Assembly (NCBI GenBank): GCA_021292105.1
Contig: CM037869.1
Span: 41,561,849 to 41,625,848, forward strand
Length of the DNA: 64,000 nt
Source of the DNA: Anadara kagoshimensis
Lineage: Eukaryota > Mollusca > Bivalvia > Arcoida > Arcidae
Direction of reading: 5' to 3'
The notes below the pieces were generated by a model that was given only the letters and a program-made list of their open reading frames with translations, made no database searches and was not told the DNA's origin. How positions within the stretch are numbered: the first letter of the stretch is position 1; every line of letters starts with the position of its first letter. The translations under genes and the position numbers were made by a program. Positions 2,115 through 36,780 of this stretch are shown in pieces.

Positions 2115-2662
2115 TCACAAAGTTCTGGTGGTCCCATCAGTAACAAACTTATTTTACAATAAGTGTTCCATGTAACTACATATTTGTAAATTCAAAATAA
2201 ACCTTACTTTCTTTACCAATCAATAAACCGAGAAGAGTATTTAAACCATCAGCCCGGAATGTGTATGTTTATGGTATGGGCATTTTTCTTTTGAGATCGC
2301 GGGTTGGACATGGAGTATCCATGAATATTTCTTATGGGATATTTATTTGTTACCCTTCAAAGAATTTTTTCTCATTACGACTAAATAACTTGCTCTGTAT
2401 GCATATACGGGAAGCAATCTTACATCGCATGTGACTGGGGGTACAGAAATATTTTCGCATTACGCTAGGATGAATTGCCATACTACATGGATCAAATGCA
2501 TACAAAGGAAGTAACTTTTAAATCGACTGTGGCTGAGGGTACAGAAATATTTAACAGTCTACATGGGATCCTGTATCCTGACAAAACCATTTAAACTTTT
2601 AAATATTATACATTTTTTAAATTATGGAATAAATCTTGCCAGTAACAAAACGCGTTTTACTA

Positions 2663-2877
2663 CAATACAGGCCTATCGAAAGTTTAGCACTTCGATAACG
2701 AATTGGTGCCAAATAAGTCCATATAGCTCATCAGTCGGTCCCTCGTTATCTATACCTTGGCAGCTTTTGACAGCTGCTTTCTATATCTCTGCATCTTTTC
2801 TGTCTCTCTGCCTCTTGTTAACCGAGCTTTGATTCCTTTTCGTTAGCTCAAAGTTTAACTTTGGACAGGTCTGTATA
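2663..2877. mobile_element. TA-MITE-1 copy
   Basis: The left end resembles CAATACAGGCCTATCGAAAG and the right end GACAGGTCTGTA, in inverted orientation. The right end has decayed beyond CTGTA. The open frame at 2563-2832 runs across it and is not credible as a gene. Confidence 0.7.
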
Positions 2878-2962
2878 TTAGTTCATATAAGTTAGCCAAA
2901 TCAATTTGTCTCTCATCGGAATAGTTCGACAAAGTGACAAAGCCAAATCTCTGGATGTAAAG

Positions 2963-3254
2963 GTAATGGATTGTAACGTCACAGGCAAGAATATTCACTT
3001 ATATCGAGGCATCGCAAGCTTCTTAGTATAGGCGAAGGTGCAGAAATTGTGCCTATGCATTGCGCTAATGCGGCATTATACAGCAGGGTTAAAGGTTCCA
3101 TGTCGTGTCACACCTACTGTGACACGGGACCTCGTTAATTTTAAGCTCCCATCCGAAAGAACCGTGACTTTCGTTTCGTAATTCCGAGTTCTTGAACCCA
3201 CGACCTCCCACTTACGGATTGAGCACGCTACTAACTGAGCTTCGACAGTGGTTA
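2963..3254 (-). mobile_element. SINE-G, internally deleted
   Basis: The plus strand begins with the reverse of the SINE tail (a CAAGAATATTCACTTATATCG-like motif) and ends near a box-A-like tRNA head around 3235-3254. The segment between the conserved AATTCCGAG motif and the head is shortened relative to the copy at 61793-62128. Confidence 0.75.
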
Positions 3255-3930
3255 GAATTATCTACATGCAAATGTACTACCATTATCGTTTCCGATTCAG
3301 ATTTTAGAATACGATATACACTTCTGGTTTCCGGGTCCATGAGTGTTTCCCTAAGTTTATCGCCAAACTCGTTATACCGCCAAATTTTGCCTGGACAAAT
3401 TATGGCGTTATAACGAGGTTTTACTGTACATCATTACTTACAAATGTACTAGCAGTCTAATCAAACTCAAACATCCCGGTCCACGTTTAAAATAAAAGTA
3501 AAGCCGGTTAACGCTTGTAAATTAATTAAGTTAAACAAGGTTGGTTAGGCCGAGTGCTTAGGAAAAGTAAGCACCTCATGTTTATCTAGATTCATCCAAC
3601 AAGTCAGAAGTATGCAATGAAAATTTGAATATAAAACGAACATTGAAACACGAGACGTCAAATCATATCAAAAATGTAAGTGGTGTTAAGCGAACAATAG
3701 AAGAAAACGGATTGAAACTATCACAGTTAGAGTTGATTAAAGAAGTTAAATCTTGAGATTAATGAGCCAAATGGCCGAGAATAGTTGAAAAACTACTGAT
3801 GCGACGAAAAATTTCAAACTGTCAAAATTTCTCACATTAAAAAAGTTCAGTAGGAGTTACCTCTCTTTGGTCGTATGCATACGGATTATGTATTGATACA
3901 AGAGTTGTCTCGCTTTATACTGCTCTCATT
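3255..3930. other. Mostly unassigned; one repeat fragment
   Basis: Positions 3355-3430 read, on the minus strand, TACAGTAAAACCTCGTTATAA and resemble the units of the 51.2-51.8 kb array. The rest shows nothing I recognise. Confidence 0.4.
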
Positions 3931-3933
3931 ATA

Positions 3934-4255
3934 CAAGTTGAGTTCAGAAATGGTGTTTAACGTCTTAGTCAAGAATATTTCACCTATATTGAGACGTTGC
4001 CAGCTATAAGCGAAGGCGCAAAAATTTTGCCTGTGCATTGCGATGATGACATTATAGGGCAGGGTTCTTTATCGTACCACGCCTTCCGTGACACAGGACC
4101 TCGTCCCCATCGTGACTTTAATTTCGTATGGTGAGTTCTTGGCAAAAGAACAGTCACAACTCATTTTCAAGTCTTGGGTCAGACCCGGTCGGGGTTCGAA
4201 CCCACGACCTCCCACTTACGGAGCGAGCACTCTACTAACTGAGCTACCGCTGTGG
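3934..4255 (-). mobile_element. SINE-G, near full length
   Basis: On the minus strand it runs from a tRNA-like head with box A (GTAGCTCAGTTAGTAGAG, near 4250) and box B (GGTTCGAACCC, near 4195). The conserved body follows, then a tail resembling ATATAGGTGAAATATTCTTG near 3975. No clear target-site duplication remains. Confidence 0.85.
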
Positions 4256-4394
4256 TTATTAATATGAGGTACAGTATAAACATTTTCATGATGCACATTG
4301 TCTGCGTTACAATAATAATCCAAAAAGTTGAATGACTGTCATAAAAAATATCGTTGATAAATATATTTCTATACATCCTTGTTTATCTTAGATA

Positions 4395-4605
4395 TCTTTG
4401 ACGTTCCATAATTTCATTTCCCTTCAATTCTCAATTCTGACTACACACGTGGTGATTGTAGCTAGCTAATCAGGAGGTGGTTAACGTTCCGGAGCATCCA
4501 ACGGAAGTTCACGTGTGTACATTAATATACGACTTTTTACCTTGCTTTTGGGATTGTGATTTGGACCTGAGTACGGGTTTTTGGTATAATTTTACTTATA
4601 AAAAT
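4395..4605 (-). repeat. Block D repeat
   Basis: It shows the family hallmarks: a CACGTG site near 4447, a TTCCGGAGCA core, a second CACGTG near 4512, and a 3' part resembling GCTTTTGGGATTGTGATTTGG. Related copies occur in the 11.8-14.5 kb array and at 49.7, 50.0 and 60.1 kb. Confidence 0.7.
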
Positions 4606-4959
4606 TAAAAATCTAATTTCATGAACACAACACTATGATTTCGCTGGAGCAGTTTTTGATTAAATGGCAATATAATGACACAATCAATAAAATAAATGCC
4701 ATTTCTGGGTAAACCAGGACAGGGAATTCTATTAAACTATTAAAAATAAACTAACTCTAAATGATTAATTTATTTACTTAGTCATATATTTAACATGACA
4801 AAAGGATGATTTCTGAATGTCTTAAAAATAACTTAATAATTGGTGTGCCGGTCACGTGGTATGGTAATGTTTAACACCAGATAGTATCGCTTACAGTTTA
4901 AAAAGACAATATGGTGCACACTTACAATGGATGTCGGGAGATATAGTTAAATTATCGCC

Positions 4960-5111
4960 GTCACCTATCAATTTATCAATTTTATACCGAGTGAACCTCC
5001 GACTTGGATTGTTAAATAACAAACGACTCAAAAATTCGGAGCCAAAGGATTGATTTGAAATTACTTCTGATGTATATATGTATATTTAGCGATTTATGTT
5101 TGCATGGTATG

Positions 5112-5150
<39 letters not shown>

Positions 5151-5324
5151 CATTATCCAGTGAACTTCCGACTTAGATTGTTAAATAACAAACAACTTAA
5201 AAATTACCAATTTATCAAAGAGTAAGGTTTGGATAAATAAGGACACGACATGTCCTCACACAAAAATGGCCCCCATATGACAAGCGAATCTTTAATCTCA
5301 TGTTGTGCTCACTTTTACGTTTAC

Positions 5325-5366
<42 letters not shown>

Positions 5367-5659
5367 CTTTGTACCAATATATGTAAAAGATCTTTCAACC
5401 ATTGACCGGGGGACAGTAATCACCCCAATCACAAGCAGAGTGGGGACACCACCAACAAATGTGGGGACAAATCCTACGGTAGGATAGTTGAAATGCTATT
5501 AAACGTTATTTACAATAGAGTAGGGTTAGGTGAGATGGGGACAAAACATGTCCCCCAATTAAAATACTGAAAATGTCCTTACATTGCAGGTAAAAGAGCT
5601 AACAAATTTCTTATAAATATTCAATCCACTTGTCCCTACTTTACACTGATGAATTAACC

Positions 5660-5715
<56 letters not shown>
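4960..5715. repeat. (GA)n-bearing dispersed repeat, copy 1
   Basis: Three GA microsatellites (5111-5150, 5328-5364, 5661-5714) punctuate a sequence that recurs at 22310-22735. Shared motifs include GTTGAAATGCT, TGGGGACAAA-like and ATACTGAAAATGTCCT. A short segment with CCGACTTGGATTGTTAAATAA is also duplicated within the copy (about 4997 and 5168). Open frames through it read RE/SL dipeptides and are artefacts. Confidence 0.65.
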
Positions 5716-5717
<2 letters not shown>

Positions 5718-5730
5718 ATAGTGAAATAGA

Positions 5731-5850
5731 GTGCTTGGCGAAAGTACAGTCGCCACCCACATACAAGACTTTGGTCAGACTCGGCAGGGGTCGAACCTTT
5801 AACCTTCCACTTACGAAGCGATCACTCTACCAACTGAGCTACCACAGTGA
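5731..5850 (-). mobile_element. SINE-G head fragment
   Basis: Minus-strand tRNA-like head with box A (GTAGCTCAGTTGGTAGAG, near 5845) and box B-like TCGACCCC, followed by the conserved CAAAGTCTTG-type body. The 3' part is missing; the break abuts a GA microsatellite. Confidence 0.75.
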
Positions 5851-6834
5851 AATAGTGCTTCAATTTTACTATAAGAACTTTTTTCAAAATTGAAACTAAA
5901 GCCTGGAAAATATCTGATATCTTTCTTGTCCAACTACTGGTTGTCTCGGTGCTAATAACGTGGACTCGGTGTTGGAGTTGATTATAACAGAACACCTCTC
6001 GCCATCTATGTTCTTATCCTACTCTAACAGATCTAACTTTCTGTTCTGGCATACTGGTTTCCTAAGTATGAAATGCCATACTCGATACAGCTTAAAGAAT
6101 TTTGACTGGAACGTAACAAGCCATTACTCTACTTCAATCCACTCAAAAAACCACTATAATGACCTAAGTGGTCTATGTTTTGCATGCATCTTCGCCATTA
6201 TTGGAAAATAAATCAACAAATACAAAAAACGAACATATATAAATAGCCTTCAAGTAAAACTAAAAAGATAACAAACTGCTGTAAAATGCCGATGCGACGT
6301 GAAACAACTAACTTTTCCTTTACCTCGGGATTTCGTTGACGAGGTCTAAACTACCGGGTTACAGTCTCTATAAACCTTAGTCAATCACCACTCAATAAAC
6401 AGAACAGATGATAGTGTGAGTAAAAATGACCAGTTCCCTAGCCGAAGGCCTATGGTTTTTCTCCAGGCACTCAGATTTCCTCCATCATCCCAGAACCAAC
6501 ACCTTAATATAAGTATAGAATCTTGCGTTAACCACTACTTTTCAATTTCTTAGACATTTGACATTGTTATATAACGGAAGTTACATAATCGGTAGTATGA
6601 GCTGATGCTAGTTGGTCTTTGGACACACCATTCTTTATTTTTGAAATATCTGCACATTAAAAAATAAGAAAAGGAAGATGTGTGGAGTTTTGGTTTTCTT
6701 TCCATTCTAAGACGGCTTGACTTTTTAAAAGTCGTTACATCAAGATTTATATTGAACTTAGGAAGATTGCGCCTATACTTATTAGGAACCGATAATGTTA
6801 TATAAAAAACAAACTTACTCATACATGTCCACAT
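5851..6834. other. Unannotated stretch
   Basis: Two short open frames (5960-6211 plus, 6550-6834 minus) show no recognisable motif or codon signature. Around 6425-6500, GGTTTTTCTCCAGGCACTC resembles the SINE-S central segment and may be a relic. Confidence 0.4.
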
Positions 6835-28640: not shown

Positions 28641-28655
28641 CGGAAGAAACATGGG

Positions 28656-28956
28656 CACAGGCATTTGTTTCTATGAATGAAAAAAAAATCGAGAAATTAC
28701 TATATAATAACACAAGGTGGTCATCTCTTTTTCAGGAGAATTACCACCAGTCCGCTTCAAACTGATTATTTCCATTTTTGCACGATAAAAATTCAAACAA
28801 ACCTGGTACCGTTCGATTCAAAACACTTTTATCTTTACGGTAATACACATTTTTGTATCCCTCGATAACCCCTCGCTTGAATAATTGACATATTTCTCAG
28901 CTATTCCAACGACTACGACAAATATCACACTTCCACTATATTCACTTCCGGTCCGC
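28656..28956 (+). repeat. Left terminal inverted repeat (301 bp)
   Basis: I compared it with 33859-34159 by eye and found no mismatch, including the 9-A homopolymer at 28680-28688. Identity stops abruptly after GGTCCGC (28956) on the inner side and before CACAGG (28656) on the outer side. Confidence 0.93.
28943..28951 (-). promoter_or_regulatory. ETS-type site in left arm
   Basis: CACTTCCGG (CCGGAAGTG on the other strand) matches the classic ETS/GABP core found in many animal promoters. It sits 5 bp from the inner edge of the arm, about 155-270 bp upstream of candidate plus-strand starts. Function is inferred only. Confidence 0.4.
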
Positions 28957-29107
28957 AGTTAATATTATTTTGAGTAAATAAAATGAGTTGTTTAAAAAAT
29001 ATAAACGTATAACAGTTTTAACATTTATATTTTTACACAAACAAAATAATACATATCTTAATTTAAAATCTGTGTTTTATTATTTTGACTATATTTATGT
29101 TCTCAAC

Positions 29108-31177
29108 ATGTACGCCATGACAAGTCAAGAGGGTTTCCAAATAAGAACGATAACTCCCGATGAAATCAAATTGACATTTGGTGGGAAATTTAAAACGGAC
29201 AATTTTGATACTTTTCAAAATGAGTGAATGCAGAAATAATTTTGCAATTACTTTTTGGTAAGTATAATGAGAGAACTCTCAATTTGTAATACAGCCAATT
29301 ATATTGACGTTTTGGGGAAATATATAAAGGAGATAGTACCAAATGAGGCTTTCTATGGTACTAGTACCTAGTCAAATTTGTGTTTCTGTAAACATGGAGA
29401 ATGCAGCATAGAGTTAAAAAAAAAATGACGGTACCTACATTTGTACGGGGGGGGGGGGATCAGATTTATGGACTGGCACAACATTTATGCAGTAAAAAAA
29501 AAAAAAAGATTAAAAAAAAAATGTTCAAAGTTTATTATGTTCTATATGTTCATGAGAGTGCATATTTCTCACAGGCACTTGTTTCATGAATAAAAAAAAT
29601 TATCGAGAAATTTTTGATTGTCAATATATATTTAGTTGATATGCAATTCTATGGCAGACCAAATGGGTTTTTATTCAAAAAATGGAGTTATCTACATTTA
29701 AACAGATATCTTTATTTCAAATAAAGATATCTCTTTCAAATACAGATATCTACATTTTCCAAAAATTAATGCTTTAATACAGATATCTCTAATTCAAATA
29801 TAGATTTCTGTATTTGAAATAGAGATATCTATATTTCATGTTTATGCATTGATTAAATAGGGTAAGGTGTTTTACGCCTACTCAAGAATATTTCACTTAT
29901 ACGAGGCGTCCAGTTTTCCATGGTGGAGGAAGACCCTGGTTTCACGAGGAGACGCCAGGTAGAACCACCGACCTGCGGTAAGGGAACTGAACAAACCCTT
30001 TCTCAGATAAGGCCGCGCTGTGCGGATTCGAACCTGCGACCTCATTGCTGAGAGACCACATGATTGTTGGCGCCCTGCCTAACCACTCGGCCACTGCGGC
30101 CTAATTGATTAAATAAAGTCAAATGCAGATATCTGTACTTATGTAGCTAAACGTTTACGTCGTAACAATTTCATTTTAGTGGTCAAAGTTTCATATTCAG
30201 AATTCTGTGAAAAAAAATTTAGTGATCCCCAATTGAAATCAACAAATAACTAATTTTTTAATGGGTCTCTAAAATGGTGGTGAGGGAGCAGTTATTAACC
30301 GACATCAAATATGAAACTAAAGTTAATAATCAAATATAAAAAGTCCCATCACCTTCTAAATAAAGATATCTGTATTTGAAACAAAGATATCTTTTTTGCA
30401 TTTCAGTGTCACTAAATAGAGATAGCTGTATTTGAAATATATATATCTTCATTTGTAACACAGATATCTGTATTTGAAATTCAAATATATTTATTTAGGG
30501 TTAGAATGTTCGTTTAATATAGATATCTATATTTGAAATAGATATATCTTTATTAAGTATATCAAATGTCGATATCTGTATTATGAATGTAGATATCTGT
30601 ATTTGAAATGCAGATATCTCTATTTATTGAATGAAAATCCATTTGGCTTACCATAAAATTCAGTAGCAATATTTACAAAAAAGAGAAATAAAATTTAAAA
30701 TAAGTTAAAATATAATTTTGCTCAAGAATGAAATGGCTCAATTTAAATAAAAAAAACTTTTTCTTAAGAATGAAAATGGCTCCCTTTAAATACTTAATAT
30801 AAGCAAAACATTGTTTACTTTGTAGGTTATCAGAGCATCTTGCATTTAATACTGGAAATACATCTCTTCATTTAATTTATGAACAATTGAAAGAAAACAG
30901 TATAATCCAAAACAAGGATCATGAGCATATAAGTGTTAACCTTGTTGCACATTTAATATCTGTATTATTTAAAAATGTACAAAAATCAACAGTCCACTGT
31001 CAGACCACAGGGAAACTTTTACAAAGTTACAAAAATATTTCAATACTACCATCTGTATGTAACAAAGAGATTCCATTTGAAAGTGTGTACAAAATGTTAC
31101 CTCCTAACTGGTTTATCTTTCATAAAGACTCCATCTCAGTTACATTTGGTCATTTATCTGAAGTTCGATTTTTGTAA
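29108..31177 (+). CDS. Possible second gene of the element (split, unassigned)
   Basis: I do not recognise this product. The best-supported part is 30825-31177. This open frame follows an acceptor-like TTTACTTTGTAG (ending 30824) and encodes about 117 residues (SEHLAFNTGNTSLHL near its start, LPPNWFIFHKDS near its end) before a TAA. A donor-like TTTTTG|GTAAGT at 29257/29258 ends a short frame from ATG 29220 in the compatible phase. A separate 39-codon frame from ATG 29108 (MYAMTSQEGF start) overlaps it in another phase and would need a one-base shift to join. The inferred 1.57-kb intron holds later insertions. The 3' end overlaps the helicase 3' end by 24 bp, convergently. Exon choice is inference. 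Confidence 0.3.
29401..29545. repeat. Homopolymer-rich stretch
   Basis: Successive A-runs (29417-29426, 29493-29506, 29511-29520) and a 12-13 base G-run (29447-29459) inside the putative intron. These are typical places for sequencing length errors. Confidence 0.85.
29570..29615 (+). repeat. Diverged internal copy of the element terminus
   Basis: CACAGGCACTTGTTTC, then ATGAATAAAAAAAA and ATCGAGAAATT, parallels the first 45 bp of the left arm (CACAGGCATTTGTTTC, then CTATGAATG and ATCGAGAAATT) in the same orientation. No matching inverted partner was seen nearby. It may be the left end of an older related insertion. Confidence 0.6.
29649..30656. mobile_element. Nested inverted-repeat insert rich in GATATC
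   Basis: Left end CTATGGCAGACCAAATGGGT and right end, reversed, TTATGGTAAGCCAAATGGAT, form an imperfect inverted repeat of about 50 bp (about 80 percent by eye). AATT borders both ends (29645-29648 and 30657-30660), a possible 4-bp duplication. About 16 copies of AGATATCT or close variants, often followed by GTATTTGAAAT, fill the interior on both sides of a later SINE. Non-coding. Confidence 0.6.
29860..30103 (-). mobile_element. SINE-S inserted inside nested insert
   Basis: ATTGATTAAATA lies at 29848-29859 and 30104-30115 as a 12-bp target-site duplication. On the minus strand: box A GTGGCCGAGTGGTTAGG near 30095, box B GGTTCGAATCC near 30026, a central segment, and a tail GTGAAATATTCTTGAGTAGG near 29895. 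This is the cleanest SINE-S copy in the window and the youngest layer in the helicase element. Confidence 0.92.
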
Positions 31178-33763
31178 AGTTTTTAAAGATGACATTCCAT
31201 GGTCAAATATGAAAGATTTTAACTTCAGATGTGTACTTAGTTTGTTGGCAGACTTGTCATTACAGAAAGCTTTGATGTTCAGTTCTGATGTAAGGGTAGA
31301 CTTAACATCAACCCTTTTGCGTAATGCATCAGTTTTTATTTTACCAACTTTATGAATGAAATCTTTCCTAAACTGATTGTCAGCCACACGACAAAATCTC
31401 TGAATAATGTCAGAATAAAGTTCTCGCAAACAATGATCTGCACTATCTTTATCAATAAACAAATATTTATCAGACTGTTCAAAAGACTGAAACAAAATTC
31501 TCCATTTGTTGAAAAGAGTTTCATTTTCTAGGAGGACAGAATGACAGTGATTTAAAAATTCCGTTCCATATAATTTAAAATTGCTTTCAGTTTGAACAGA
31601 AAGTCTCTCTTTTTCAATCGCTTGAACAAAAAGAAAAGCAGAATCAATGATGTTGGTTAATCCTTGGGAGAGATTTTGTTTACGCTGTGTTTCGAAAAGG
31701 GATTCCTTATATTCCGAATTATTTTCCAAATCTGCATAACTTGTTGTTAACGAGTCTAACATTTTAACTTTCAAAAAGGCTTTCCCAACTGAAATTCTAC
31801 TTTTTTTATTGTACATGTTGTTTTTTGCATGTTTCATATGATGATATCTACATTTCGCAACACAACGTCCAAATATATATCTTAACTTACCCTTAACAGA
31901 TTCAGAAATTTCTTTTCCTGTTGTATCTTTTGACACAGTTAAATGTTCTGACTGTTTTTCTATTACTAAAGACTTCACTTTATCAAAAATGTTACTACAG
32001 ATTTCATAATAGATATCTGAGGGCTCACCATCAGATATCAAGTGAACAAGAGCAGTGTATTCTGCAGATACAGAAAAGTTGTATAGTTCTGTACAGAATG
32101 CTGTCCATATCTTTGAATCTGTTGACACTGTTTTAACATTTCCACATGTTGCTTGAAAAATATCACTGAATTTGTGAAAAAGTTTATTTGAAAAAGTTTC
32201 CACAGTATTGATTCTGTTTTCAGTTAATGATTTAAAATAAGAACTTACCAGTTTTTCTCTTGGCGAAACTTTCTCTCCAGAAAAAATACTACAGATTTCA
32301 TTCATGTTAATGACTTTATGAACCTGTTCCTCTGGATCAAGAACATCAGAATCACTACTCATCAAAAAATCAATTTCTTCAATTTCTGTGTCACTAAAAT
32401 CAGATAATTCCTCCCCCTCCTCAAAGATTGAAATTGCAGGATGTGCTTTCTCTTCAGTCTGACTGGGAACAAAGTCAATTTTGCAACAAGTTGTGTCTTG
32501 AAAAAAATTCTTATGGCACTTTACACAGTCATCATAAAAGTCATATAAAATTTTCTCGTGTTTTATGACACAAGATGGATTAAAGCCCATTATACGTAGA
32601 CCCTTTTTTTCTGTTGCCCGACCTATTGCCACGCCAAACTGACCAGCTGCAAATATGCAACTGGCATCAACTTCTAACCTACTTAATGTCAACCCCTGAG
32701 ACTTATGGATTGTAATGGCAAATGCCAAACACAGAGGCAATTGTCTACGTGTTGCTACAACTTTATTGTCAGTGGTACTGAAGACAGTAAATGTTTCCTT
32801 TCTCAACTCTGTGTATAAAGTACTTTCAAAGTTTTTATTTTGGAAGTTTACACCAACAGTTTTATTAGTTTTGTCAATTTTCACACACAGTACCTCTTAA
32901 CCCATTGACAAGTTTGTCAGATAAATTTTTTAGCAGTAGAATAGAACAGCCAATCTTAAGGTGCAGTGTTTTAGGAACAGGCATTCTCTCAAGTTTGTTT
33001 GTATCACCCTCGTCAACTGAATGAAACACATGGTCATCACCTTCAATTTCCATTAATTACAAGCATTAAAAATAAAACAATCAAAATTCCGTGCACATAG
33101 ATGGATAGGTTCCTCGCCAGGTGGTAAAGGACGACTCAAGCGCTTAATTAAATTAAGAGTGTCATCAGGTAAATTTCCTCTCGACACATCATTCACAGCC
33201 TTAATAAAGTCTGGCTGATTTTGACGCATGACATCAGTTAATACAAATTTATGAATAAAATAGGTTTTAAAAATATCCGAGACAAAACAATATTCTCCTG
33301 GGTCATCCTTTAGGATGTCAGGAACTGGGGCTAACTGAAAAAAATCACCAACCCCCAGTACCTGAATTCCCCCAAATATTTTCTCACTTTTTCTTGTTTT
33401 CCTGCAAATATATTCTAATTGTTCGAATAAGCGTTTTGACAACATAGAAATTTCATCAATGATTAAGCAGTCTGTTGTTAAAATATTGTTCTTATATATT
33501 AAAAAATGTTCATTGTTAGAAATTTTGTCCAGTAAATTTTCGTTCGAATATCTACCATCGCCAATACCACACCACGAATGAACAGTTTGTCCCCCTATAT
33601 TAAGGGATGCTATCCCTGTAGTGGCTGTAAGCCTTACATTTATACACTTTTCTTTAAGTTTACGGGCAATTTCTTTACAAACAAAACTCTTTCCAGTGCC
33701 ACTCTGGCCTAAAATTAACAAGGAATGGCCATTTACCGCCTTTTGAACAATATCGTCTTGCAT
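31154..33763 (-). CDS. PIF1-like DNA helicase with long C-terminal extension (two frameshifts)
   Basis: Superfamily 1B 5'-3' DNA helicase. From ATG 33763 the first 236 residues carry Walker A GQSGTGKS (19-26), motif Ia RLTATTGIASLNIGG (44-58), Walker B IIDEIS (101-106), the PIF1-type motif III GGIQVLGVGDFFQLAPV (131-147) and motif IV LTDVMRQ (175-181). The frame then breaks near 33053. A second frame keeps the conserved LKIG..LLKNL and NGLRG motifs, and a second break falls in a GT run near 32885. The third frame carries motif V (AFAITIHKSQGLTL) and motif VI (QFGVAIGRA). The gap encodes helicase core, so it is not an intron. About 480 further residues include an acidic stretch (EEGEELSDFSDTEIEE) and no domain I know. 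It resembles cellular PIF1 more than Helitron helicase; no Rep domain. The breaks may be mutations or base-calling errors. Confidence 0.9.
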
Positions 33764-33858
33764 TCTTGTCGTTTTACCTGTTTTACAATTTCTACTTTCG
33801 ATTTGTGATTCTATTTATTCACCGACCAATCAAATATGGTCATCATATTCCCTGCGCA

Positions 33859-34159
33859 GCGGACCGGAAGTGAATATAGTGGAAGTGTGATATTTGTCGT
33901 AGTCGTTGGAATAGCTGAGAAATATGTCAATTATTCAAGCGAGGGGTTATCGAGGGATACAAAAATGTGTATTACCGTAAAGATAAAAGTGTTTTGAATC
34001 GAACGGTACCAGGTTTGTTTGAATTTTTATCGTGCAAAAATGGAAATAATCAGTTTGAAGCGGACTGGTGGTAATTCTCCTGAAAAAGAGATGACCACCT
34101 TGTGTTATTATATAGTAATTTCTCGATTTTTTTTTCATTCATAGAAACAAATGCCTGTG
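33859..34159 (-). repeat. Right terminal inverted repeat (301 bp)
   Basis: Reverse complement of 28656-28956 with no difference seen. The helicase start codon lies 96 bp inward, so this arm probably supplies its promoter. Confidence 0.93.
33864..33872 (+). promoter_or_regulatory. ETS-type site in right arm
   Basis: CCGGAAGTG, mirror of the left-arm site, about 100 bp upstream of the helicase ATG. A promoter role is inferred from motif and position. Confidence 0.4.
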
Positions 34160-34167
34160 AACATGGG

Positions 34168-34754: not shown

Positions 34755-35105
34755 TGGTAAAATGAAGACTTGAAAGTGGGTAGTGACTGGGTTTTTTTTT
34801 TTTTTTTTTTTTTGCCAAGCACTCGGCATTAAGAAATGTTACGAGAAAAGTCATTAAAAGACGGCTTATGTTGGAGGTCGTGGGTTTGTACCCTGGCCAA
34901 GCAAACGGCAAAGTCATGGTATCCTTCGGAAGGCACCTCAAAACGATGTACCGTGTCACGACCACGTTAAAGAGCCTTTTCTGCATAATGCCTAGAACAC
35001 AATGAAAAGGTTAAACATTCTGTCACTTCACTTATAGCTGGTGACGTCTCGATATCATTGAAGTATTCTTGTTTGGGACATAAACCCTAACAATGAATCA
35101 ATCAA
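34755..35105 (+). mobile_element. SINE-G-type copy with poly-T and rearranged head
   Basis: GACTTGAAAGTGGGTAGTGAC, a T-run (34791-34813), then GCCAAGCACTCGGCATTA, a second box-B-like GTCGTGGGTTTGTACCC, the body, and the tail GTGACGTCTCGATATCATTG at about 35041. The order suggests one SINE inserted into another. Confidence 0.7.
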
Positions 35106-35479
35106 TTTAGAGACAGCTGCGACATGTTCGTGGATTTTGCTAAAGCCTTCGATAAGTACAAATGTACAACATTAAGTGGTTCCTAAATAGATCTAACATA
35201 AAAACATTTCCAATAATTTGGAGGGGGAGGGGGGTACAACTTGTCTATTTGACTAATACCTAACCAACTCGCGACGGTGTTTCGTCGAATGACTGCCAAT
35301 CAAAATGCACGAATGCTGTTAGACTAGTTTTTGGTACCACAAAATTACCAAAAAACCACAGTAACCGAGTTGTCATGTCGTTACTGGGTCTTTAAAACCC
35401 AAGACACCCTACCCGGTCGACAGCAATTGGTCACCAAGGCCATTCTGGTTTTTGCGGAAGTTCATCATGAAGTCAGATA

Positions 35480-36780
35480 CTGGACTATATACATCCTACT
35501 GGTTATCCTACCATCCCTGGCAACTTCATTACTCCACTCCACTCCACCATCCCTCTAACCGATTGTCTCGATATAAGTGAAATAATCTTGACTGGGGCTT
35601 AAAACTCCATTACTCCACTCCACTCCATCATACTTAAAAGTACTACCTTGATATTAGTGAAGGAATATTGACTAGGGCGTAAATATACATTACTCCACTC
35701 CACCATCATCCTAGAACTGACTGTCTCGATACAAGTGATTTTTTTACTGGGGCGTAAAACTCCACCATTCCAATCCACTACCCTCAATCTGACGGCCTCG
35801 ATGTATACGTAGGTGAAAAAAATCTTGACTGGTGCATAAAAATCTCTGAACCAACGGCCTCGATATAAGTGAAAGAATCTTGAGTGGGGCGTAAAAATTT
35901 ATAATTAGACTCTACTTCAATCCACCCCACCATGACAACTGACTGTGTCGATATTTAAGTGAAATAATCTACACTGGAGCCTAAAACTCTATTTCATCAC
36001 CACACTTCGCCATGTCTGAACTGACTGTCTCGATATAAGTGAAAAATCTTGACTGCTGGGTAAAATCCCCATACTCCACTCCACCATCACTGGACTGAAT
36101 ACATGGATACAAGCGAAAGAACTTAAGTGGGGCGTTAAACTCCATTAAACTACTCCACCATCTCTAAACTTACTGTTTCTATATAAATAAAAGAATCTTG
36201 ACTGGGCCGTTAAACTCAGTCACCACTCCACCATCCCTGAACTAACTGCCTCGATATAAGTGAAAGAATCTTGACTGGACCGTAAAACCCCAATACTCCA
36301 CTATCCCTGAACTGTCTCTATATAAGCAAAACAATCTAGACTGGCGGCTTAAACTATTACACCAACCCACTTCAAAATGACTGGTGGGTAAAACCCTAAC
36401 ACTCAACTCCACCATCCCTGAACTGAATATCCGATATAAGTGGAAAAACTTGAGTGGGGCGTACAGCTCCGTCACTACTCCACTATCCCTGAACTAACTG
36501 TCTCGATATAAGTGAAAGAAACTTGTCTGGGGCAAAAAACTACAATATTCCACATACAACCAACAACTCTGAATATCTAAGTGACTGTAGTATCAAACTC
36601 CACTATTCGACTCCACCCTCCTGATCTGACTGGCTGGATATAAGTGACTGACTGTAAAACTCCAATCTCCATTACTCGACTCTACAATCCCGAGTTGTCC
36701 GTCTCGATATAAGTAAAAAAAATCTTGTCTGGGCTGTAAAACTCCGAGGCAAAACTCCACTCACTCTACTCTACGTTTAT
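35480..36780 (+). repeat. SINE-tail satellite, about 75-bp units x15 or more
   Basis: Each unit has CTCGATATAAGTGAAAGAAT, CTTGACTGGGGCGTAAAACT and CCATTACTCCACTCCACCAT, then CCCTGAACTGAC. The first two motifs are the shared 3' tail of SINE-G and SINE-S. Unit starts fall near 35568, 35651, 35728, 35800, 35861, 35947, 36030, 36105, 36179, 36252, 36312, 36432, 36506, 36640 and 36703. No tRNA head is present. Confidence 0.9.

Follow-up and report, generated by a model that had tools for sequence, protein, structure and literature searches.

A probable P-superfamily transposon of Anadara kagoshimensis with a gene for a PIF1-PHD helicase, and its internally deleted copies

P elements count among the standard models of cut-and-paste transposition and of the gap repair that follows excision, and their gain in copies depends on the manner in which the excision gap is filled. 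The P-type transposase cuts out and inserts the element, which in Drosophila has a length of 2.9 kb and inverted ends of 31 bp. The present study concerns a stretch of 64,000 nucleotides from the bivalve Anadara kagoshimensis (assembly GCA_021292105.1, contig CM037869.1, positions 41,561,849 to 41,625,848 of the forward strand), in its full length called the window; contigs, copies and families were counted within the same genome. Positions 28656-34159 hold, with high probability, an internally deleted, non-autonomous copy of a cut-and-paste DNA transposon of the P superfamily, 8.9 kb in its complete form. It differs from Drosophila P by its 301-bp ends, by an additional convergent gene, which codes for a PIF1-PHD helicase, and by the lack of a THAP domain in the frames read. 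Helitrons and Helentrons contain likewise a PIF1-type helicase; Helitrons are rolling-circle elements with a Rep-helicase fusion, without inverted ends or target-site duplications, and Helraiser is a weak match to the helicase described here. Galileo, a P-superfamily element of Drosophila, is similar in that its inverted ends are long, reaching 1.2 kb, and in that it has chimeric copies without matching duplications, like two copies here (L014 and L019). Its target duplications comprise 7 bp instead of 8 bp, and in the passages considered here helicases appear as neighbouring host genes, not as part of the element (PMC2775673, PMC3573991). An accessory helicase in cut-and-paste elements is described for KolobokH and Kolobok-1_CCri, in the latter on the complementary strand; these belong to another superfamily and carry a RecQ helicase, not PIF1 (PMC9587614). 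Long inverted ends in the P superfamily and RecQ in another superfamily are thus known, while the pair of a P-type transposase and a PIF1 helicase appears new: the titles and abstract openings listed in full-text literature searches named no such element, with Repbase and most subscription papers, where a description is possible, outside their range. With a P-type lineage that has its own PIF1, it can be asked directly whether a transposon is able to steer how its excision gap is repaired. Combined in this lineage are a P-type transposase, long inverted ends and apparently mobile micro-copies down to 91 bp.

The exact 26-bp terminus was present at 71 places on each strand of the genome, a reversed control pattern at none. 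Pairing of termini, for which 100 of the 142 places were used, yielded at least 48 copies: 11 of complete length (~8.9 kb), 19 of 1.6-5.6 kb including the window copy, 17 no longer than 120 bp and one of 17.8 kb; four ends among the 100 listed termini were left unpaired. Twenty fetched regions and the window gave a close set of 21 two-ended copies (L026, with one end only, was not counted). An exact 8-bp target duplication flanked 19 of the 21, L014 and L019 being the exceptions; in L016 two copies share one duplication and were therefore counted as a single event. Seven copies of the close set were complete, with 8906-8910 bp. Six of them showed no pairwise substitutions, only few single-base or short insertions and deletions, and the seventh (L010) had 8 substitutions, all within 20 columns. 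The element family has spread recently. In the complete element the ends start with CACAGGC and enclose two convergent long frames, of 790 amino acids on the plus strand (P0001, the transposase of family 1, the family of the window element) and of 1049 amino acids on the minus strand (P0002, its helicase); copy L009 had two frames longer than 120 amino acids. Both frames were open in three of the seven complete copies, and the frame breaks at small insertions or deletions in the other four may be real or assembly errors. Genome-wide, at least 15 uninterrupted 790-residue and at least nine uninterrupted 1049-residue frames were found, 100 % identical within each set.

The transposase of the complete copies is of the P-element type as judged from sequence and predicted fold, with a predicted catalytic function. 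A P-type RNase H transposase domain was found in the transposase group, and terminal inverted repeats and 8-bp target duplications, both features of the P superfamily, were present. As the structure model of the family-1 protein was poor, the fold was predicted for a relative of 42 % identity, with 16 rows in its alignment; in Foldseek this relative matched the P element with E 4.5e-11 versus E 8e-3 for Hermes. The GTP-binding insertion domain PF21788 exceeded its cut-off in the C4 relative only (26.3 versus 24.8 bits) and was weak in P0001 (16.1 bits) and L030 (17.8 bits). D379, D480 and E724, candidate catalytic residues of P0001, are located within conserved motifs and were chosen by conservation, not by residue-level mapping onto the Drosophila enzyme. 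The first methionine of the frame is residue 97, while conservation starts at about residue 5, thus an upstream exon is likely, and a split THAP domain may exist. Several results weigh against the assignment. The family-1 transposase stayed below both Pfam cut-offs, as did the C6 relative piece (20.3 and 17.8 bits), and the C14 relative piece had no Pfam match. The family-1 model had a predicted local distance difference test score (pLDDT) of 34.5 with 2 aligned rows, so that the structural match comes from the relative, itself of mean pLDDT 57. A THAP-like C2CH pattern was absent from the six frames of one complete copy. When the transposase, as a single sequence or as a 7-row profile, was searched against PDB sequences, the Drosophila enzyme was not reached; only the fold led to it. 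Scans of viral contigs for relatives gave two transposase and one helicase pattern matches, none of them confirmed; a single-protein query detects close relatives only in such scans.

Other transposon groups were considered and rejected. hAT elements also make 8-bp duplications, but for P0001 Pfam gave no hAT domain with an E of 1 or less, and the fold match to Hermes was far weaker. For a Maverick/Polinton, neither frame of L009 had a domain of a protein-primed DNA polymerase or a retroviral-type integrase among the Pfam rows listed; for a Helitron, the 8-bp duplications do not fit, and a Rep domain was absent among the Pfam rows listed (4 of 4 for P0001, 25 of 29 for P0002).

The window copy is composed of the following features:
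28648-28655, strandless: left target-site duplication AACATGGG, represented once, as AAGATGGG, where the paralogous site is uninterrupted (C13:40546900-40548100)
28656-28956, plus strand: left terminal inverted repeat, 301 bp, terminus CACAGGCATTTG
29570-29612, plus strand: imperfect internal copy of the terminus, covering its outer 43 bases (77 % identity ungapped, ~88 % gapped)
29697-30648, strandless: subterminal block of repeated AGATATCT palindromes
29862-30103, minus strand: insert resembling a short interspersed element (SINE), with transfer RNA (tRNA)-like A and B boxes recognized by eye; the complete copy L009 has the same insert
30803-31171, plus strand: 5' remnant of the P-type transposase frame, residues 1-123 of 790
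31171-31172, strandless: internal-deletion junction with 1-base overlap; 3394 bp of the complete element are absent (2524-5917 of 8907)
31157-33814, minus strand: PIF1 helicase remnant, residues 1-886 of 1049, with 3 stops and the PHD end lost
33053-33814, 32874-33056 and 31154-32896, minus strand: open helicase pieces (PIF1 core, 2B domain and tail, respectively)
33859-34159, minus strand: right terminal inverted repeat, 301 bp
34160-34167, strandless: right target-site duplication AACATGGG

The initial annotation had described a PIF1-helicase element with identical 301-bp inverted arms and an 8-bp direct repeat, and both observations were confirmed: the arms agree in 301 of 301 bases, and AACATGGG stands directly outside each of them. 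It occurs twice on the plus strand of the window, its reverse complement not once. The annotated span, 28648-34167, includes both target duplications and is thus wider than the element proper. A PIF1-type helicase is present inside as annotated, however in three pieces in different frames; the core (E 2e-33) and the 2B domain (E 8e-10) were recognized, the tail had no domain above its cut-off. Two doubts raised at that time were removed: the arm is not single-copy (136 candidates; 40 were scored, all with 99-100 % identity), and the inverted identity stops at the arm borders. Insertion was directly evident from an empty paralogous site on contig C13. The left flank has its paralogue at C13:40547022-40547470 (92 % identity), and both flanks, joined with one AACATGGG, align uninterrupted to this site (93 % over 896 columns), where the 8 bp read AAGATGGG and are present once. 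Since the flanks are continuous there with a single 8-bp sequence, the inserted part consists of the element and one 8-bp copy. An assembly artefact was rejected, as copies with separate sites, duplications and deletions lie on many contigs of the assembly. In sum, the supposition of a mobile element was right, with regard to the long inverted ends, the 8-bp target duplications and the helicase of its own, and the term non-autonomous was appropriate for the window copy, in which most of the transposase gene is deleted. The view that no transposase belongs to it did not hold, as the first 123 codons remain and the gene is open in complete copies; nor did the statement that no known group fits, given the P-element type of this transposase, or the idea of a helicase captured by one copy, because several divergent families also have the helicase next to the transposase. 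Of the 13 AGATATCT sites in L009, 12 lie within the subterminal palindrome block. The SINE-like piece probably inserted before the last amplification, as it is shared with L009; ARAGORN found no tRNA in the 64-kb window.

Fourteen of the 21 copies in the close set were shorter than the complete element; L016b was dropped as a duplicate before junction reading, leaving 13 junctions. The middle was absent in all 13, each with its own breakpoint pair. Overlaps at the junctions comprised 1-6 bases in ten copies and 21 bases, a match with 7 mismatches, in L014, while L024 had a 3-base insert and L028 a filler of ~1.5 kb. An overlap of 1-2 bases is expected by chance, thus microhomology at the junctions is only suggestive. 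In Drosophila P, too, complete copies are accompanied by internally deleted derivatives (PMC7776569). Reading of ten among the 17 listed micro-copies gave lengths of 91-116 bp and an exact 8-bp duplication in all ten cases; one 116-bp sequence was present at three sites, and a fourth micro-copy was one base shorter. They are without the AGATATCT block and have at most ~58 bp of an arm, which would suffice in cis if they were inserted in that form. The micro-copies may also derive from post-insertion deletion at the palindrome centre. Six of the 19 mid-length copies form a tandem array at C5:48829286-48862624 (part in L016), each deleted to ~1.9 kb and spaced at ~6.29 kb; two of them were read and share the duplication CTAGTTAA, so probably a host segment was multiplied in tandem after one insertion. 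The 17.8-kb end pair at C11:37822115-37839934 encloses a complete-length copy, and as 8913 bp are left after subtraction of 8907 from 17820 bp, the locus looks like a copy inserted into a copy.

The transposase and PIF1 pair is, to judge from the sequences of related families, a trait of the lineage. Nineteen transposase and 17 helicase loci outside family 1, the best-scored candidates, were compared. Ten of the 19 listed transposase loci had a helicase locus within 20 kb (nine within 6 kb, the one on C6 at 13 kb), in all ten pairs in convergent order, with 0.012 pairs expected by chance; the ten are not all independent, several being of one family (C4, two on C17, C18). Between families, the helicase showed a nonsynonymous divergence (dN) of 0.27-0.77 and a synonymous divergence (dS) of 1.3 to saturated in six of six comparisons, and the transposase the same slow protein change in four of four. 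These values were obtained from open frames or open pieces, with dS too saturated for exact ratios; both proteins show signs of constrained evolution. The family-2 copy on C4 has 9.7 kb and inverted ends of 531-538 bp (97.8 %) starting with CACAGGCGCTTGG; neither the C4 nor the C17 copies of this family gave a direct 8-bp duplication. In the C13 copy, the ends of which measure 262-307 bp (75 %) and begin with CACAGGCACATG, the 8-bp duplication TCTAGCAT is exact. The C1 family presented one end only, without an arm pair in the 9.9 kb read. At C17:12150000-12162500 (L037 and L038), family-2 copies stand head to tail with GTCTATAG between them, the far end carrying its reverse complement CTATAGAC, an arrangement not produced by simple insertion. 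Against a general pairing stand the loci without a partner within 20 kb among the matches listed (nine of 19 transposase, seven of 17 helicase loci). Two of the nine are on C16, where the absence was read directly: a 50 %-identical relative with an open frame of 803 amino acids had no helicase in the 10.7 kb read. Among the divergent families, clean 8-bp duplications were seen in one only, that on C13. The two C16 relatives (L040, L029; C16:10116182-10122334) face each other at ~2 kb distance.

In Pfam, P0002 matched PIF1 (E 4e-32), the 2B domain (E 2e-8) and a PHD finger at residues 999-1047 (E 5e-7). Among PDB chains, those called 'ATP-dependent DNA helicase PIF1' were nearest (E 3e-68 to 8e-57), and Helraiser reached E 6e-14; these sequence matches do not suggest a loan from a Helitron. 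The tail gave nothing convincing in Pfam (E 0.03 or worse). Residues ~430-990 form a long tail common to the C4 family, in which the motifs RYI.G....AK and ETQRKQNLS.GL were seen by eye.

We tentatively propose that the helicase acts in long-tract repair synthesis at the excision gap of its own element, restoring the donor site and gaining copies. The transposase would cut the element out and insert it elsewhere, and the element's PIF1 would drive long repair synthesis from the sister chromatid at the gap. The large element would then be restored at the donor site, and a nominally conservative jump would end in copy gain. With 8.9 kb versus 2.9 kb, the element should need long-tract repair synthesis more than Drosophila P. 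Fly PIF1 was reportedly found by Kocak et al. in 2019 to be needed for efficient excision-gap repair without POL32. Host helicases, PIF1 among them, are implicated in this repair in flies (PMC8951532), and yeast Pif1 stimulates the extension of displacement loops (D-loops) by polymerase delta (PMC8096244). Interrupted gap repair after excision would probably have removed the 3' parts of both genes from the window copy, as proposed for the Drosophila P derivatives. Yet more tentative is the view of the whole lineage as P-type elements with their own repair-synthesis helicase that gain copies by it and whose repair failures leave deleted copies. It speaks against a repair function that many copies lost their middles despite the lineage's helicase, so any help in repair would be incomplete.

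The helicase could serve transposition itself by opening the ends or the AGATATCT block, clearing arm hairpins or processing transposase-bound ends, a somewhat less likely role: the length of the arms and the number of palindromes would allow structures to form, and Pif1 helicases aid replication past barriers such as G-quadruplexes (PMC8998199). The micro-copies with exact duplications, if inserted as such, argue that the AGATATCT block and full arms are not needed in cis. An improbable alternative is an anti-silencing or chromatin-reading factor, with the PHD finger aiming the helicase at open chromatin. The finger exceeds the Pfam cut-off in family 1 and, with 37 bits against a cut-off of 24, in the C13 family, and its PDB matches include the ALFIN-like, TAF3 and BPTF fingers, which are readers of methylated histone H3 lysine 4; however, the C17 copy has a sub-threshold match (20.1 bits) in a separate frame, and conservation extends to the PIF1 core and tail.

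A passenger gene, acquired in a single capture and kept without use, would agree with the transposase loci that lack a helicase among the matches listed and with the broken gene in the window. This quite improbable reading is opposed by two open helicase frames of 1049 and 1047 amino acids at 34 % identity, by constrained protein evolution and by the uniform convergent order. Movement by the helicase alone, in a new mobile group lacking any transposase, would suit nothing but the window copy viewed by itself and has a negligible probability beside the P-type transposase encoded by the complete copies.

Just right of the element, at 35045-36000, the window contains a block of direct repeats with units of 37-71 nucleotides and 60-84 % identity.
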